Shown here: in pieces, positions 46,984 to 54,122 of the stretch
How the letters are laid out: each line of letters opens with the position of its first letter
Numbering within the stretch: the first letter of the stretch is position 1
From: Lunatimonas sp.
GTDB lineage: Bacteria > Bacteroidota > Bacteroidia > Cytophagales > Cyclobacteriaceae
Direction: 5' to 3'
Length of the DNA: 64,000 nt
Assembly (NCBI RefSeq): GCF_020832325.1
Contig: NZ_JAFIEU010000002.1
Location: 1 to 64,000, forward strand
Notes under the pieces: generated by a model
The model's database searches: none
The model's input: the letters and a program-made list of their open reading frames with translations, nothing else
What the model was told of the DNA's origin: nothing
Made by a program: the position numbers and the translations under genes

Positions 46984-47838
46984 TTACCTTCCTTTTTCCA
47001 AATCCAAAATATCCCGGATTTTGTTCGCTTCTGCCATTTCTTCGGATAGGCCCTTGTAGTCTTCTGCAGCGATCTTATTGCGGAAGTCCTGCATATGGGC
47101 GATGTACGAGTCCATGGCTTCCAGCAGATTTTTGCGGTTTTCGACAAATATCGGTGCCCACATGGCCGGAGAGCTCTTCGCCAACCGCACCGTAGAGGCA
47201 AATCCACTGCCTGCCATGTCAAAGATGTGCTTTTCATCTGCCGTCTTGTCCAGTACCGTCTTGCCCAGCATGAAAGAGGTAACGTGCGACAGGTGCGATA
47301 CAAACGCTAGGTGCAGGTCATGGTCTTTGGGGTCCATGAAACGGAGCTTCATATTCATCAGCTCAAACAGCTCGTAGGCCATTCCTTTCAGGTGTACATC
47401 GGTTTTTTCCATTTCACAGATGATCATCACCTTGCCGTCGAACAGGTCTACTTCAGCGGCCTTTGGTCCGGAGTTTTCCGTTCCGGCGATGGGGTGCACA
47501 GCCAGGTAATTCGCGCGTTTTGGGTGCTTGGCGATTTTCTCGCAGATCAATTCCTTAGTGGAGCCGAAGTCAAACACTAAAGTCTTGTCGCCGGTCTCTG
47601 CCAGGGTTTGTTCCAAGAGGCTGGTTAAGGTATCTACCGGGGTAGCCAGGACCACCACGTCGGTATCGGCGTCCGGTTTCTCTTTGGCTTCGGTGATCAT
47701 GCCCAGGGCTTGGGCTTGCTCCAAGTGAGTGGAGTTTTGGTCGAAACCTGTAACGATCAGGTCGGGTCGCTTCTTCTTTAGTACCAGGGCAAATGATCCC
47801 CCCAGCAATCCCAAACCAATAATGTGTATCTTCTTCAT
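46984..47838 (-). CDS. tyrA: Prephenate dehydrogenase
   Basis: This is a 284-residue enzyme with the NAD motif HIIGLGLLGGSFALVLKKKR at the N-terminus. AVHPIAGTENSGPKAAE, FMDPKDHDLHLAFVSHLSHV and GSGFASTVRLAKSSPAMW are typical active-site segments. It oxidatively decarboxylates prephenate to 4-hydroxyphenylpyruvate for tyrosine. There is no fused chorismate mutase or ACT domain, so mutase activity must come from the AroF-AroQ fusion in the same operon. It is the last gene of the attenuated operon, 19 bases after the aminotransferase. Confidence 0.96.
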   Translation of the reverse strand: MKKIHIIGLGLLGGSFALVLKKKRPDLIVTGFDQNSTHLEQAQALGMITEAKEKPDADTDVVVLATPVDTLTSLLEQTLAETGDKTLVFDFGSTKELICEKIAKHPKRANYLAVHPIAGTENSGPKAAEVDLFDGKVMIICEMEKTDVHLKGMAYELFELMNMKLRFMDPKDHDLHLAFVSHLSHVTSFMLGKTVLDKTADEKHIFDMAGSGFASTVRLAKSSPAMWAPIFVENRKNLLEAMDSYIAHMQDFRNKIAAEDYKGLSEEMAEANKIRDILDLEKGR

Positions 47839-47857: not shown

Positions 47858-49006
47858 TCAGTGTTCAATTCGATTCAATGCCTCCAAAATATCCTCTTCG
47901 GCAACGCATAACGAAAAGCGAATATACTGCTCGCCCGCACTGCCAAAGATCATTCCCGGTGTCACGAAGAGGTGCTTCTCGTGCAGCAGCCTATCTACCA
48001 TTGCCAATGCGTCGGTTCCTAAAGGGACCTTGGTCCAGACGAACATCCCGCCCGGTTGTTTCAGCAGTTGTAAACCCAGCTTTTCGGCCAGTTTCCATAC
48101 CAGCGCCCTTCTGCGTGCGTAGATCGCATTGTTTTCGGCAAACCAGTCATTGCCTAGGTTGAGCGCAGCTACGGCCCCTTCCTGTAGGCCCAAAAACATG
48201 CCCGAATCCATGTTGCTTTTTACCCGAAGTACCGCCTGCAGGTAGTCCTTTCTTCCTGCCAACATCCCTACCCGCCATCCGGGGATATTGAAACTCTTGC
48301 TCAAGGAGTTCAATTCCAACGCATGTTCTTTGGCACCGGGCACGGCCAAAAGGCTGATGGCTTCCTCATACAGCACAAAGCTGTAGGGATTGTCGTTGAT
48401 CAACAGGATATCGTTGGCTTCTGCAAATTGGAGCAGGCGCTCAAAGAGCTTGGGATTTCCAGGTGCACCTGTAGGCATGTTTGGGTAATTCACCCACATC
48501 AACTTTACCTTTTTTAGGTCCATTTGTGCCAGCTGTTCCCAATTGGGCTCCCAGTTGCTGCTTTCATCCAGCTCGTAATACACAGGATTGGCATTTAATA
48601 GCTTGGTCACGGATGTGTAGGTGGGGTAGCCAGGATTGGGAATCAGCACCTCATCTCCCTCATCCAGGAATGCCATGGAAATATGCATGATACCTTCTTT
48701 GGATCCCATCAGAGGGAGGATTTCCTGTTCAGGGTCTAGCGATACGCCATAGTGCCGCTCGTAGAAGGCGGCAAAGGAGTTCCTCAGCGCCGGAATACCG
48801 GTGTAGGACTGATAGCCGTGGGCCTTTGGGTTTTCTGCGGCTTTTTTCAAGGCATCGATTACGCTGGGGTGCGGTGGCAGGTCCGGACTGCCGATGCCCA
48901 TGTTGATGATCGCGTGACCAGCCTGCCGAAGCTGTGCCACTTCCTTTAGTTTCGTGGAGAAGTAATATTCCTTTACTTCACCTAGCCGCTTGGAATACCC
49001 TTTCAT
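47858..49006 (-). CDS. PLP-dependent class I/II aminotransferase, likely aromatic amino acid aminotransferase
   Basis: This is a 382-residue fold-type I aminotransferase. AIINMGIGSPDLPPHPSVI, ALRNSFAAFYERHYGV, MWVNYPNMPTGAPGNP (NxPxG, here NMPTG), INDNPYSFVLYEE and the Schiff-base Lys in ELNSLSKSFNIPGWRVG are visible. Its place between pheA and tyrA, overlapping the pheA stop by four bases, argues for the last transamination to Phe and Tyr. Sequence alone cannot exclude aspartate or diaminopimelate substrates. Confidence 0.92.
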   Translation of the reverse strand: MKGYSKRLGEVKEYYFSTKLKEVAQLRQAGHAIINMGIGSPDLPPHPSVIDALKKAAENPKAHGYQSYTGIPALRNSFAAFYERHYGVSLDPEQEILPLMGSKEGIMHISMAFLDEGDEVLIPNPGYPTYTSVTKLLNANPVYYELDESSNWEPNWEQLAQMDLKKVKLMWVNYPNMPTGAPGNPKLFERLLQFAEANDILLINDNPYSFVLYEEAISLLAVPGAKEHALELNSLSKSFNIPGWRVGMLAGRKDYLQAVLRVKSNMDSGMFLGLQEGAVAALNLGNDWFAENNAIYARRRALVWKLAEKLGLQLLKQPGGMFVWTKVPLGTDALAMVDRLLHEKHLFVTPGMIFGSAGEQYIRFSLCVAEEDILEALNRIEH

Positions 49007-49848
49007 ATTTTTCGGTTTTGATACTCCCCAAATAGTTTTACTTCACCGAAGTTCTCTTGGATTTGTGCGATGGCCTGTTTAAAAAGGTCGTAGTCACCGA
49101 TCAGTGTGTCGATGAAAAAAGCATACTCCCAAGGTTTATTAATCACGGGGATGGATTGGATCTTGGTGAGGTCCAGGTCGTGTTCACTCATTAGGGTGAG
49201 TAATTTGGCTAACCCACCTTTTTGGTTGTGGATGGTTACTTTTAACGAGGCTTTGGTGGGAGTTTCCTTGATTTCCGGTTTCTCTCGCTGTAGGAGGATA
49301 AATCGGGTAAAGTTGTTTTTAACAGTTTGGATGTTGGAGGCAATGATTTCCAGTCCGTAGTAATCGGCGGCTTTGGGGCTGGCGATGGCACCTATTCCCT
49401 TGAGTTCTTTTTCGGCGATTAGTTGTGCTACGTAGGCGGTATCTACGTCGTCTATCAAGCGGATATGGGGATGCTGTGCAAAAAACACCTTGCATTGCAG
49501 TATAGCCATCGGATGAGACCGCACCTCGTGTATAGTATCGATAGATTGACCGGGCCAAACCATCAGGTTATGGGAGATGGGGAGATAATACTCGTCGAAT
49601 ACGAAGAGGTTGTGCCGGTCTATGATGTCGTAATTGGGAAGGATGGCTCCCGCGATGGAGTTTTCGATTGCCATGACGGCATAGTCGGCGGTTCCAGCCT
49701 CAACGCTTTTTGCTACTTCCTCAAAGGTGTGAAAGCCGCCCACATCGATGTTTTCACCGAAATACTGCTGGGCTACCTGATGGTGAAACGAACCCGGTAC
49801 GCCCTGAATGGCGATGTTGAGCTTTTTGGTTTCCAATACTTCATTCAT
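49003..49848 (-). CDS. pheA: Prephenate dehydratase with ACT domain
   Basis: This is 281 residues. The dehydratase domain (about 8-185) has IAIQGVPGSFHHQVAQQYFG, YAVMAIENSIAGAILPNYDI and the catalytic Thr region NFTRFILLQREK. The C-terminal ACT domain (about 197-270) begins KASLKVTIHNQKGGLAKLLT, with IQSIPV at the regulatory-ligand position. It makes phenylpyruvate and should be feedback-inhibited by Phe through ACT, adding enzyme-level control to the transcriptional attenuator. It overlaps the aminotransferase gene by four bases. Confidence 0.96.
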   Translation of the reverse strand: MNEVLETKKLNIAIQGVPGSFHHQVAQQYFGENIDVGGFHTFEEVAKSVEAGTADYAVMAIENSIAGAILPNYDIIDRHNLFVFDEYYLPISHNLMVWPGQSIDTIHEVRSHPMAILQCKVFFAQHPHIRLIDDVDTAYVAQLIAEKELKGIGAIASPKAADYYGLEIIASNIQTVKNNFTRFILLQREKPEIKETPTKASLKVTIHNQKGGLAKLLTLMSEHDLDLTKIQSIPVINKPWEYAFFIDTLIGDYDLFKQAIAQIQENFGEVKLFGEYQNRKI

Positions 49849-49873: not shown

Positions 49874-50242
49874 TCATTTTTTGAAAATAAAATAGACAGC
49901 CAAAACCAGAAAGCCAAAGCCTACCAAATGGTTCCAGCGGAAGGATTCATTTTTGAAAAACAGAAAGGTGAAGATCATGAACACTACCAACGTAATCACT
50001 TCCTGCAAAACTTTCAGCTCCACCAAGGAAAAAGGACCTCCGTAAGCTTTATATCCCAATCGATTGGCGGGGACCTGAAAGAAATATTCAAATAGGGCTA
50101 TTCCCCAGCTTATCAAAATGATGGAGATCAGTCCCAAGTTTTCAAACCACTTGAGTTCTTTGAATTTCAAGTGGCCATACCATGCCATGGTCATAAACGC
50201 ATTTGAAATGACCAACAGGACGATTGCATAGACACCTTTCAT
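49874..50242 (-). CDS. DUF486 (DMT superfamily) small membrane protein
   Basis: This is a 122-residue protein with four predicted membrane helices: IVLLVISNAFMTMAWYGHL, LISIILISWGIALFEYFFQV, the segment after YGGPFSLVELKVLQEVI, and LVGFGFLVLAVYFIF. It belongs to the DUF486/DMT group of half-size transporters, which work as dimers. The substrate is unknown; export of an aromatic compound is conceivable from its position inside the aromatic operon. The 125-base repeat leader ends exactly at its ATG. Confidence 0.87.
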   Translation of the reverse strand: MKGVYAIVLLVISNAFMTMAWYGHLKFKELKWFENLGLISIILISWGIALFEYFFQVPANRLGYKAYGGPFSLVELKVLQEVITLVVFMIFTFLFFKNESFRWNHLVGFGFLVLAVYFIFKK

Positions 50243-50389: not shown

Positions 50390-51616
50390 CTATTGTTGGA
50401 TCAGGGGTTCCACGCCGAGCAGCGCCACATGTTTCCAAAAGCTGGGGTAGGACTTATTGACTACCTCAGGATCGTCAAACGACACTTCCATCTTAGCCAT
50501 CAGTGGCATAAAGGCCATGGCCATGCGGTGATCGTCGTAGGTGTGAATCTGCACCCGGTCGGGGAGCTGTGTACTGGGGACAAGGGTGAAAACGCCCTCT
50601 TTCCGCTCTTCCAGTCCGGCGTGGATTTTTGCCAGTTCCCGTTGCAATGCATCTATGCGATCGGTCTCTTTTATCCGCAGGCTTTCCAACCCGCTAAATT
50701 CACAGCTACGTCCCAACAGGGCACACGTGACGGCTACCGTCTGAGCAATGTCCGGACAGTGGGTGAAATCGATGTGTTCGATGCCAACTATTGGTTTCTT
50801 GGTCAATCGAACGCCTTGGGAGTCAAATTGACTCTGCACTCCTAGCTTATCCATGATGGCTACGATGTGCGAATCTCCTTGCATGCTGTTTGCCTTTAAT
50901 CCGGTCAGGTACAGCTCCCCCTCTTCGGCACAGGCTAGCAGGCTGAACCAATAGCTCGCCCCGGACCAGTCACTTTCCACGGTAAATCGCGTTGGCCGGT
51001 AGGTCTGGGGTTTGATGAAAATAATGTTTTCTTCAAAGGTGTATTCCACACCAAATTCCTTCATCAGCTCCAGAGTCATTTCGATGTAGGTTCGGGAACC
51101 GATCTTTCCAGTCAATTCCAGCGTTAGCCCTTTGGGTAGTAGGGGGGCGTTCATGACCAAGGCGGAAATGTATTGGCTACTTACATCACCCCGAATCTGG
51201 AGGCGGTCGGTCAGTTGGGAGGTAAATCCCTTTGTCTTTAGGGGTGGGTAGCCTTCCACTCCCAAGTATTCGATGTCAGCGCCCAGGGTCCTCAGGGCAT
51301 CAACCAATATCCCTATGGGCCGCTCACACATTCGGGGAGTGCCGGTGAGTATTTTTGTCCGGTTGGTAAGGGCAGCGTATGCCGTCAGAAAACGCATGGT
51401 GGTGCCTGCATCAAGCACATCTAACGTGTCGGGATCCTCTTGAAGCAAGCGGATCATGGTTTGCGTATCCCTCGCCTCGGCCAGGTTGCTTAGCTGATTG
51501 TCCCCCTCTGTCAATGCATCGATGATCAGGGCCCGGTTACTTTCACTTTTGGATGAAGGCAGGGGGATCATCACTTGGCCGAAGCGGCTTTTTCGGGGGA
51601 TAGTGACGGTGTTCAT
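50390..51616 (-). CDS. aroA: 3-phosphoshikimate 1-carboxyvinyltransferase (EPSP synthase)
   Basis: This is a 408-residue enzyme that joins shikimate 3-phosphate and PEP. Seen motifs: PLPSSKSESNRALIIDALTE (N-terminal Lys/Ser region), LDAGTTMRFLTAYAAL, RPIGILVDALRTLGADIEY, GDVSSQYISALVMNAPLL and the C-terminal RIKETDRIDALQRELAKI and YDDHRMAMAFMPL. The length is slightly below the usual 430 residues. It follows aroB by 132 bases that hold no gene or clear signal. The repeat element separates it from the DUF486 gene. Confidence 0.95.
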   Translation of the reverse strand: MNTVTIPRKSRFGQVMIPLPSSKSESNRALIIDALTEGDNQLSNLAEARDTQTMIRLLQEDPDTLDVLDAGTTMRFLTAYAALTNRTKILTGTPRMCERPIGILVDALRTLGADIEYLGVEGYPPLKTKGFTSQLTDRLQIRGDVSSQYISALVMNAPLLPKGLTLELTGKIGSRTYIEMTLELMKEFGVEYTFEENIIFIKPQTYRPTRFTVESDWSGASYWFSLLACAEEGELYLTGLKANSMQGDSHIVAIMDKLGVQSQFDSQGVRLTKKPIVGIEHIDFTHCPDIAQTVAVTCALLGRSCEFSGLESLRIKETDRIDALQRELAKIHAGLEERKEGVFTLVPSTQLPDRVQIHTYDDHRMAMAFMPLMAKMEVSFDDPEVVNKSYPSFWKHVALLGVEPLIQQ

Positions 51617-51748: not shown

Positions 51749-52786
51749 TTACGGGGCAAGGTCGTTGTAGTAACGTAGGGATTGGAAGATTTCATCCTTA
51801 CCAACGGCAATATTGTATTCGCACTGACCGATTTTGGTCAATAGCGAAAAGTTGAGAATGGAACCCTCGTTCTTTTTGTCCTGAAAGCACAGGGAAACGA
51901 TGGCTTCAAAGTCATCATCGGGAATGCTAACCTTACCAAAAACCCCTAGGATCTTAGACTCGATCTTTTGAAGGTCCTCGTGGCTCAAGCGAAGGTATTT
52001 TTGTGAGAGGAACGCTTCGGCCAACATGCCGACTGCGATCGCTTCGCCGTGTAACAGGTGGTTTGGGCTATCCAGGTAGTGGGATTCCACTGCATGGCCT
52101 ATCGTATGGCCAAAATTTAGGATTTTCCGCAGTCCTTCTTCCCTTGGATCTCGGCTGACTACCGACTCCTTGATCCCCACAGACACTTCGATGATGTCCT
52201 TCCAATTTTGAGTTTGCCAGTTTTCGGTTTTGAGACTTTCAAAATAGTTGGCGTTGGAGATTAGCCCGTGCTTGATGATTTCTGCATACCCGGAGCGCAG
52301 TTCTGCTTCCGGCAGAGTCTGCAGAAATATGTCGCTGATGATCACTGCTTCGGGTTGGGTGAAGACACCGATGTGGTTCTTGAACCCCATGAAATCTATG
52401 CCGAGTTTGCCGCCCACGCTGGCATCCACTTGAGAAAGTAGGGTAGTGGGGATATTGATGAAGCGTATGCCTCTTTTGTAGGTGCTTGCGCAAAATCCGC
52501 CCATATCACCCGTGACACCACCGCCAATATTGATCACCAAGGCTTTTCGGTCAAATCCCTGTTCGGTCATCCACTGCCAAATCTGGGTACAGGTATCCAG
52601 GTTTTTGTGGATCTCTCCGGCTTCGAATGCGAAGACGGTGTGTTCCGGCAGGGATGACTGAAGGAGGGGGTAGCAAGTCTGCACGGTATGGCTGTCTGCG
52701 ATGACCCCCAGCTTGGAATATTTCCGGGTGTCCAGATAGCGCTGTATATCCTTAGCGATTTGCGCCGAATAGATGACTTTTTCCAA
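51749..52786 (-). CDS. aroB: 3-dehydroquinate synthase
   Basis: This is a 345-residue NAD- and metal-dependent enzyme that converts DAHP to 3-dehydroquinate. Motifs are VINIGGGVTGDMGGFCASTY, RFINIPTTLLSQVDASVGGK, ELRSGYAEIIKHGLI, RKILNFGHTIGHAVE (metal-binding His) and LLHGEAIAVGMLAEAF. The start is TTG at 52786: no in-frame ATG precedes it and the next Met would cut into the domain. The gap to aroF is 28 bases. Confidence 0.95.
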   Translation of the reverse strand: MEKVIYSAQIAKDIQRYLDTRKYSKLGVIADSHTVQTCYPLLQSSLPEHTVFAFEAGEIHKNLDTCTQIWQWMTEQGFDRKALVINIGGGVTGDMGGFCASTYKRGIRFINIPTTLLSQVDASVGGKLGIDFMGFKNHIGVFTQPEAVIISDIFLQTLPEAELRSGYAEIIKHGLISNANYFESLKTENWQTQNWKDIIEVSVGIKESVVSRDPREEGLRKILNFGHTIGHAVESHYLDSPNHLLHGEAIAVGMLAEAFLSQKYLRLSHEDLQKIESKILGVFGKVSIPDDDFEAIVSLCFQDKKNEGSILNFSLLTKIGQCEYNIAVGKDEIFQSLRYYNDLAP

Positions 52787-52814: not shown

Positions 52815-53921
52815 TTAGACGCTTTTCTTTACAGATACATCTTCTCTTAACTTTTTCTCTTGTCTTTTCACGGATTCTTCATGGATGCAATAAAGCAATT
52901 CCTTCATGAATTTCTCGCTAAGGTTCTTTTCAATACCTCGTTGCGTCCTGGAGTCCATCACGGCTTTCCAGCGTTCGGCTTGAAACACGGTTAGGTTATG
53001 CTCGCGCTTGTGGTCACCGATTTGGTCGATGATCGCAAATCGCTCGGCAAGCAGGTCCAAAAGCTGATCGTCGATGTGGTCAACAGCTCGGCGTAGATCC
53101 TGAAGTTTTTCAGAAGGTTGTTCCGCTTCCAATGGCTTTTTGAAATCGATCGCGTCGATGATTTCTCTCAAGCGCCGGGGCGTTACCTGCTGTTTCGCAT
53201 CAGACCACGCATTGTCTGGGTCGTGGTGGGTCTCGATCATCAATCCATCTAAGCCGAAATTGATTGCTCGCTGAGCCGTTTCCAGTAATCCCTCCCGGTT
53301 ACCAACGATGTGGCTGGGGTCATTGATTACCTGCATGCCCTTCCAGATTCGCTTTAGGTGCATGGGCATAGACCAGTTTGGCTTGTTTCGGAAACGCTTG
53401 TCGTAGGCGTCACTGAAACCACGATGGATAGCTGCCAACTTGTTAATACCGACGGCCTGCAACCTCTCAAGTGCTCCTCTCCAAAGCTCCAAGTCGGGGT
53501 TCATGGGATTCTTCACCATTACCGGGATGTCCACACCTTTCAGCGCGTCGGCAATTTCCTGTACGGCAAAGGGGTTTACGGTAGTTCGAGCACCTATCCA
53601 AAGGATGTCCACACCATGCTTCAGCGCTGACTCCACGTGGGCGGTGTTTCCTACCTCGGTAGTAATGGGGACATTTAGGTGATGCCTTACAATTTCCATC
53701 CAGGTTAGACCCACTTCTCCGATACCTTCAAAGCTTCCCGGCCGGGTTCGTGGTTTCCAGATACCTGCACGAAACACGTCGGGAACCATATTGGCCTCCT
53801 TCATGTCCAAACAGATTTTTTCGATTTGCTCAGGAGTCTCCGCGCTGCAAGGTCCCGCGATGATCAGGTGCTTGTCTTTCAAGCCCAAACCCCAATCCTG
53901 TGTTTGTAAGTGATTTTCCAT
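52815..53921 (-). CDS. aroF: Bifunctional DAHP synthase / chorismate mutase (AroF-AroQ fusion)
   Basis: This is 368 residues. The DAHP synthase domain of the KdsA-like (type I-beta) form (about 15-260) has HLIIAGPCSAETPEQIEKIC, VFRAGIWKPRTRPGSFEGIG, TEVGNTAHVESALKHGVDIL and GLMIETHHDPDNAWSDA. The C-terminal AroQ mutase (about 275-355) has LRRAVDHIDDQLLDLLAERF. It carries out the first committed step and the chorismate-to-prephenate step. Fusion lets prephenate bound at the mutase inhibit the synthase, as known for Prevotella. It is the first structural gene after the attenuator terminator; ATG follows the terminator T-tract by 20 bases. Confidence 0.96.
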   Translation of the reverse strand: MENHLQTQDWGLGLKDKHLIIAGPCSAETPEQIEKICLDMKEANMVPDVFRAGIWKPRTRPGSFEGIGEVGLTWMEIVRHHLNVPITTEVGNTAHVESALKHGVDILWIGARTTVNPFAVQEIADALKGVDIPVMVKNPMNPDLELWRGALERLQAVGINKLAAIHRGFSDAYDKRFRNKPNWSMPMHLKRIWKGMQVINDPSHIVGNREGLLETAQRAINFGLDGLMIETHHDPDNAWSDAKQQVTPRRLREIIDAIDFKKPLEAEQPSEKLQDLRRAVDHIDDQLLDLLAERFAIIDQIGDHKREHNLTVFQAERWKAVMDSRTQRGIEKNLSEKFMKELLYCIHEESVKRQEKKLREDVSVKKSV

Positions 53922-53940: not shown

Positions 53941-53970
53941 AAAAAAGGCCCGATTCCTTCGAACCGGGCC
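53941..53970 (-). terminator. Attenuator terminator in the aromatic operon leader
   Basis: In the transcript, GGCCCGGTTC pairs with GAATCGGGCC around a GAAG tetraloop, a ten-pair stem with one G-U pair, followed at once by six Us. It lies between the Phe/Tyr leader peptide and aroF, inside the operon leader, so it is an attenuator and not an end-of-operon terminator. Confidence 0.88.
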
Positions 53971-53997
53971 TCTTTAAGTTTATCTTTTGTTTTAGTT

Positions 53998-54087
53998 TTA
54001 ACTCAGACAATAAGCAGCTCCGATTCGCCCTTGGGGACGAAAGTAAAAGTAAAAGAAGCTAAAATAGGTAGCTGCGAAATTTTTCAT
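53998..54087 (-). CDS. Phe/Tyr-rich attenuator leader peptide
   Basis: This is a 29-codon ORF on the complement, too short for the ORF track: ATG at 54087, TAA at 54000-53998. Codons 8-17 read YFSFFYFYFR. In all, six of 29 residues are Phe and four are Tyr, the end products of the operon behind it. Its stop lies 28 bases before the terminator stem. This is the arrangement of pheL-type leader peptides: translation speed through the Phe/Tyr codons reports the supply of charged tRNA. There is no homology claim; identification rests on composition, position and the RNA pairings. Confidence 0.88.
   Translation of the reverse strand: MKNFAATYFSFFYFYFRPQGRIGAAYCLS
54014..54075 (-). promoter_or_regulatory. 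Pause and antiterminator segments of the attenuator
   Basis: In the transcript, segment 1 (GCAGCTACC, codons 5-7) can pair with segment 2 (GGAGCTGC, codons 23-25). GAATCGG (codons 21-23), overlapping segment 2 by two bases, occurs again in the 3' arm of the terminator. Both copies can pair with CCGGTTC in the terminator 5' arm. A ribosome stalled at Phe/Tyr codons 8-16 would cover segment 1, free GAATCGG and so block the terminator. Confidence 0.75.
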
Positions 54088-54091
54088 GCGT

Positions 54092-54122
54092 CAAATTTAA
54101 CCTTCCTGTTATTAAAATCAAA
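54092..54122 (-). promoter_or_regulatory. Promoter of the aromatic amino acid operon
   Basis: TTTG, 19 bases, then TAAATTTG is a full match to the Bacteroidota consensus TTTG-N19-21-TAnnTTTG. The -7 box ends only four bases before the leader-peptide ATG, so transcription would start at or next to the ATG. AGGAAGG lies 13 bases before the ATG, rather far for a Shine-Dalgarno site. Confidence 0.65.

Follow-up and report, generated by a model that had tools for sequence, protein, structure and literature searches.

A conserved and probably leaderless Phe/Tyr leader peptide, part of a putative transcription attenuator, upstream of aroF-aroQ in Lunatimonas and other Cyclobacteriaceae

The window analysed here is a stretch of 64,000 nucleotides from Lunatimonas sp. 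It contains a cluster of genes whose products jointly make phenylalanine and tyrosine. In the order of transcription, the cluster consists of the following genes:

52815..53921, minus strand: aroF-aroQ, a DAHP synthase fused to a C-terminal chorismate mutase, the first regulated gene (NCBIfam NF009239, TIGR01361 and chorismate mutase families)
51749..52786, minus strand: aroB, after a gap of 29 bp to aroF-aroQ (TIGR01357, above cut-off)
50390..51616, minus strand: aroA, after a gap of 133 bp (TIGR01356, above cut-off)
49003..49848, minus strand: pheA, prephenate dehydratase (NF008865, E 4.7e-59)
47858..49006, minus strand: aminotransferase, overlapping pheA by about 4 bp (NCBIfam)
46984..47838, minus strand: tyrA, prephenate dehydrogenase (NF006307, above cut-off)

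A membrane-like protein of 122 aa, which has no NCBIfam match, is encoded between aroA and pheA (49874-50242). The close gaps within the cluster amount to 29, 26, about -3 and 20 bp, and suggest co-transcription within aroFQ-aroB as well as from the 122-aa ORF to tyrA. The gaps flanking aroA are 133 and 148 bp, and the cluster may comprise more than one transcript.

The region upstream of aroF-aroQ combines a promoter, a short leader ORF, and four RNA segments that can pair in alternative ways:

54119..54122, minus strand: -33 promoter element TTTG (aligned as a column block among unique leaders, with T at 1.00, 0.99 and 0.84 and G at 0.80)
54092..54099, minus strand: -7 promoter element TAAATTTG, consensus TAnnTTTG (spacing to the ATG kept across leaders)
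53998..54087, minus strand: leader peptide ORF MKNFAATYFSFFYFYFRPQGRIGAAYCLS, from ATG to TAA, probably leaderless (conserved in orthologues)
54067..54075, minus strand: segment 1 (GCAGCTACC), partner of segment 2 (covariation; permutation test of cognate against non-cognate pairs)
54040..54066, minus strand: putative regulatory codon run YFSFFYFYF (TTY/TAY codon bias across leaders)
54014..54028, minus strand: segment 2 (GCGAATCGGAGCTGC), partner of segment 1 or segment 3 (covariation, permutation, synonymous-codon control)
53960..53972, minus strand: segment 3 (GAGGCCCGGTTCG), 5' arm of the terminator and 3' strand of the antiterminator (covariation)
53941..53956, minus strand: segment 4, 3' arm of the terminator followed by U6 (terminator call, covariation)

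An earlier note on this DNA had described a 29-codon ORF with six Phe and four Tyr codons around the core YFSFFYFYF; an ORF of exactly this kind (29 aa) lies at 54087-53998 on the minus strand. The aromatic cores of 106 unique leaders contain 840 TTY/TAY codons (525 TTY and 315 TAY) and no TTR or TAR codon, which is not what a merely U-rich tract would yield. Phe and Tyr are exchanged for each other within the core among relatives, with few interruptions by Ser, Thr, Ala or Ile. The C-terminal RIGAAYC of the peptide is well conserved in the close family. In distant clades the C termini vary freely (RVGPC, GVGSGLF, NGSVLLF) while the RNA pairing is kept, and the conservation of the peptide end therefore tracks the RNA.

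The intrinsic terminator proposed just before aroF is also found. It consists of GGCCCGGTTC-GAAG-GAATCGGGCC and T6, ending at 53941 on the minus strand, 19 nt from the aroF ATG at 53921. The neighbouring gene, from 54178 onward on the plus strand, is divergent to the leader, so the terminator can serve only a transcript begun at the leader promoter. The motif GAATCGG does occur twice, as the same note had observed, namely in leader codons 21-23 (within 54028-54014) and in the 3' arm of the terminator. The earlier pair said to hide the first copy is likewise present: GGAGCTGC is complementary to GCAGCTACC but for a single bulged base.

The note had further proposed to test the mutually exclusive pairings 1:2, 2:3 and 3:4 for covariation. 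In an alignment of 35 leader sequences, covariation is clear for two of the three helices and less strong for the other. In the terminator helix 3:4, 99.4% of cells are paired and 5 pairs are changed on both sides. For the antiterminator 2:3 the paired fraction is 95.7%, as against no more than 60% in slid controls, and both bases have changed in 4 pairs. Helix 1:2 scores 0.382 for covariation as compared to 0.193 in shuffles, with 66.7% of its cells pairing, a low fraction that is partly due to register shifts between clades. Its variants include GCAGC:GCTGC, CACAGC:GCTGTG, CACAAC:GTTGTG and ACAAGGAC:GTCCTTGT. Among 19 diverged leaders, each leader's own segments 1 and 2 pair better than in all 20,000 permutations, and the corresponding test for cognate 2:3 pairing gives 5e-5. 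When codons are replaced by synonymous ones, the native helix 2:3 is the stronger in 94% of leaders (mean z -1.70); for helix 1:2 the same control reveals no clear excess strength (mean z -0.31). The comparison thus supports helices 2:3 and 3:4 firmly and helix 1:2 moderately. An additional inner hairpin after the Phe/Tyr run (a recurring UUCG:CGAA) was considered and dropped, being no stabler than shuffled or synonymous versions.

An AroF relative is encoded in 197 of 198 genomes of the family. The earlier note had named a lack of conservation of ORF or pairings in close relatives as the outcome that would speak against an attenuator; the outcome is the opposite. Every one of the 51 family orthologues sampled at 79% AroF identity or more has the leader, as does each of the 18 sampled at 55-65%. 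Among 80 named loci it occurs at 79, and the lone exception lies at a contig edge. The named loci are mostly from Cyclobacteriaceae (Lunatimonas, Cyclobacterium, Algoriphagus, Belliella, Echinicola and others). One of the 51 leaders, read by eye, has a degenerate core (YFFYFLLLL), as if shifted by an indel, with the RNA pairing segments retained; the leader may be decaying, or the sequence may contain an error. Upstream of 20 AroF homologues with at most 54% identity the search found no leader; some of them are directly preceded by a TyrA-like ORF and others are second paralogues. In six genomes, a second AroF-AroQ paralogue (about 48% identical) is located directly upstream of the attenuated copy, and no Phe/Tyr leader was found before this paralogue.

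The locus therefore has a short ORF with a codon run for the products of the operon, an intrinsic terminator between this ORF and the first structural gene, and an antiterminator (2:3), supported by covariation and synonymous control, whose formation excludes that of the terminator. Chance is a very poor explanation for this layout, as 106 unique leaders share it and its helices covary. Comparison among relatives supports the leader ORF, its aromatic codons, the terminator and the alternative helices, with compensatory changes in the terminator and in helix 2:3 across Cyclobacteriaceae. We consider it highly probable (about 0.9) that the leader controls the aroF-aroQ aromatic operon by ribosome-mediated transcription attenuation, in support of the classical Phe/Tyr attenuation that the note had suggested.

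Other explanations have to be weighed against ribosome-mediated attenuation. The hairpin might merely terminate other transcription and the ORF be a chance frame in a U-rich stretch, since Phe is easily encoded by U-rich tracts. The divergent upstream gene, the ratio of 0 TTR/TAR to 840 TTY/TAY codons, the retention of ORF and start site throughout the family and the covariation of helix 2:3 already contradict such an arrangement, leaving it barely credible. A riboswitch or T-box, in which an aromatic metabolite or a tRNA binds directly to control the terminator, would have parallels in the T-boxes used for aromatic genes in other bacteria. The leader has a minimal structure centred on codons, and a search of the window retrieved no Rfam family at gathering score, including T-boxes and known riboswitches; the best matches below threshold were to Thr_leader and to further families of leaders or sRNAs. 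We regard direct ligand control as extremely improbable. In a TnaC-like manner, the nascent peptide could also sense free Phe or Tyr and arrest the ribosome; alternatively, the RNA or the peptide, once released, could act in trans, as has been proposed for peTrpL of Sinorhizobium (PMC7298713). The well-conserved RIGAAYC end in the close family would fit such a role of the peptide; the divergence of this end in distant clades with persisting RNA pairing does not, and the Phe/Tyr swaps in the core are what codon reading predicts. An arrest or trans-acting peptide is accordingly very unlikely.

A further alternative concerns the start of the transcript. The promoter reported upstream of the ORF is of the Bacteroidota type (TTTG and TAAATTTG) rather than sigma-70; a sigma-70 scan of the window gave no match, as expected for Bacteroidota. 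On the minus strand of the window, 19 nt separate TTTG from TAAATTTG and 4 nt separate TAAATTTG from the leader ATG. Of 109 unique leaders, 99 have exactly 4 nt between TAnnTTT(G/A) and the start codon and 5 others have 5 nt, and a Shine-Dalgarno-like stretch precedes the ATG in only 2 of the 109. In Flavobacterium, the TAnnTTTG box is located at -12 to -5 (PMC9723704). A box that ends 4 nt before the ATG hence predicts +1 at the A of the ATG, and the transcript of the aroF-aroQ leader is probably leaderless. The same attenuator could have an ordinary 5' untranslated region, with a start further upstream and the 4-nt spacing caused otherwise. In favour of this, the leaderless start is a prediction from promoter spacing, and leaderless mRNAs are a small minority in Bacteroidota: they account for 5.5% in F. 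psychrophilum (PMC9723704), and 5' UTRs under 10 nt for 3.7% in B. thetaiotaomicron (PMC7366714). As an independent control, the published Bacteroid-trp leaders were compared; they mostly have 17-30 nt between box and ATG. An ordinary untranslated region is at odds with the exact spacing, the -33 TTT(G) block upstream and the scarcity of Shine-Dalgarno-like stretches, and we deem it unlikely. The Bacteroid-trp spacing also led us to reject a leaderless start as a general trait of Bacteroidota attenuators. Together with the low share of leaderless mRNAs in the phylum, it indicates that the leaderless spacing is specific, and the probable leaderless start appears to be the most unusual trait of the aroF-aroQ attenuator.

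For the attenuator, we infer stalling, kinetics and amino-acid response as follows. The first transcribed base would probably be the A of the leader's ATG, and a ribosome would bind this leaderless mRNA with no Shine-Dalgarno site to guide it. A shortage of charged tRNA-Phe or tRNA-Tyr would stall the ribosome in the YFSFFYFYF run, the part of the RNA that makes up the loop of hairpin 1:2. The stalled ribosome would prevent 1:2, leaving segment 2 free to pair with segment 3 as antiterminator, and RNA polymerase would read through into aroF-aroQ. When Phe and Tyr are both plentiful, the ribosome would reach the stop codon and either cover segment 2 or occupy the 2:3 loop; hairpin 1:2 could then form behind the finished ribosome, and the terminator 3:4 would end transcription. 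Equilibrium folding of the RNA up to segment 3 predicts a probability of helix 2:3 that depends on the ribosome: 0.87 if it is stalled on a Phe/Tyr codon, 0.44 if it has reached the stop codon, and 0.72 in its absence. Before segment 3 emerges, helix 1:2 has a predicted mean probability of 0.87.

We note that the ribosome-free equilibrium favours 2:3, hence termination in the fed state must depend on kinetics or on the ribosome. The value of 0.72 also implies that a loss of translation could raise readthrough. This prediction differs from E. coli trp, where loss of translation is not known to raise readthrough. In most relatives the leader stop codon lies past segment 2, such that a finished ribosome would sit in the 2:3 loop with segment 2 uncovered, and the masked model gives 0.7-0.99 for many of them. 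Simple masking therefore fails to explain termination there; we infer that it results from the ribosome in the 2:3 loop combined with helix 1:2 having formed first behind it.

A covariance model built from the aroF leaders detects the leaders of close relatives at E-values down to about 1e-20. Many of its weaker matches in the order and class share, on inspection, the layout with other codons, and some are plain terminators without a leader. In many of the real leaders in this wider family, 4-7 nt separate the -7 box from the ATG, although the model includes the box and the sample of matches is biased for it; some pheA leaders differ. In one group, of 13 loci from other families of Bacteroidia, the gene directly downstream of a Phe/Tyr-rich leader ORF and its terminator is pheA (an example of the Phe/Tyr run is MIIAKAYRFTYFYFYFYFSKKPGMLLLMSK in L206); several of these leaders are without leaderless spacing. 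A second group of 14 loci consists of Tyr-rich ORFs (often YYYYY) with a terminator before a probable phenylalanine 4-monooxygenase, with the TAnnTTTG box mostly 4-7 nt before the ATG and, in L243, the Tyr-only run MNFKRNTYYYYYLAPTGIGNGSVMHMM. The enzyme family is confirmed for six of these loci; the gene right after the leader is unassigned in two. The Tyr leaders suggest tyrosine attenuation of phenylalanine hydroxylase. Upon direct sampling of phenylalanine hydroxylase genes, a Tyr leader was found in a minority only, and the Lunatimonas genome has none before its own.

Leaders with further codons are also observed. At five loci in Cytophagales, his genes (hisA, hisH) follow His-rich ORFs that have a terminator and, 4-5 nt ahead of the ATG, a TAnnTTTG box. 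Two further types are single examples: the gene for a bifunctional aspartate kinase is preceded by the Thr/Ile-rich leader MTINNTTIITIITTGKYFGGK, and an aminotransferase/MocR-like gene by a leader rich in Val. Five loci of Algoriphagus-type genomes harbour a conserved short ORF, MNPTPRT(Y/F)(V/I)HHSxxxL, upstream of phenylalanine hydroxylase, in which His and Tyr codons are mixed and which in one of them (L306) is followed by a strong terminator. The Lunatimonas genome itself was searched family by family: the search for leaders of the Thr, Trp and His types gave a single candidate, an ORF of 30 codons rich in His upstream of hisG, which starts 10 nt after a TAAATTTG box and is followed by no clear terminator. 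We give even odds to the reading that Bacteroidota, and above all Cytophagales, possess a broad family of often leaderless leader-peptide attenuators with codons matching the gene behind. In this reading, the Tyr-only version would place phenylalanine hydroxylase under tyrosine attenuation as a gene of tyrosine biosynthesis, and gating might depend on which hairpin loop holds the ribosome rather than on masking near the stop codon.

A tiny gene of Phe and Tyr codons before the genes for Phe and Tyr biosynthesis would act as an off-switch when both amino acids are plentiful, as strong comparative evidence indicates. As such, the aroF leader is a concrete and testable candidate for controlling the entire Phe/Tyr branch in a large family of environmental bacteria, where regulation of this kind has hardly been studied. 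Attenuation without Shine-Dalgarno sites, and probably without a 5' untranslated region, could be studied here in a natural system. The covariance model finds related switches with other codons and could aid the annotation of missed small ORFs, and matched leader codons could give functional clues, for example to a phenylalanine hydroxylase acting in tyrosine synthesis.

Among known systems, the aroF leader resembles the pheL/pheA attenuator of enterobacteria (RF01859, Phe_leader), which likewise combines a short ORF of Phe codons, alternative hairpins and an intrinsic terminator before Phe biosynthesis genes. It differs in its mixture of Phe and Tyr codons, in aroF-aroQ as first gene, in the absence of a Shine-Dalgarno site, and in segment 2 lying mostly inside the ORF; the RF01859 model scores 22.5 bits on the aroF leader, below its gathering score of 55 bits. 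Bacteroidetes candidates are reportedly listed among the leader attenuators of Vitreschak et al. 2004. Leaderless attenuator ORFs are said, in the title of a paper, to exist as polycysteine leaders in mycobacteria. These and trpL of Sinorhizobium meliloti share the leaderless start with the aroF leader, but belong to other phyla, concern other amino acids and are unrelated in sequence. In S. meliloti, the attenuator RNA rnTrpL starts at the trpL ATG (PMC7298713). A survey of five bacterial genomes tied Phe/Tyr-rich uORFs to genes of shikimate metabolism (PMC6429828, Fig. 6b); the passages concerned mention no aroF-aroQ fusion, Cyclobacteriaceae or leaderless start. Within the phylum, Bacteroid-trp (RF01692) is a predicted leader-peptide attenuator of trp (PMC2864571; PMC6414381). 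Unlike the aroF leader it has Trp codons, precedes trp genes and has a normal short untranslated region. RF01692 has no match in the window, none at E<=0.001 in the Lunatimonas genome and none in the family members searched. A study of F. psychrophilum reports 'strong clues' that amino acid operons are attenuated by leader peptides upstream of them, in main-text passages that name no Phe/Tyr or aroF leader (PMC9723704). With Bacteroid-trp and F. psychrophilum, leader-peptide attenuation has putative precedents in Bacteroidota. The open-licence papers searched describe no Phe/Tyr attenuator of an aroF-aroQ operon in this phylum. The putative aroF-aroQ attenuator is thus a new and very well conserved addition to a known class of mechanism, marked by its conservation throughout the family and its probable leaderless start.
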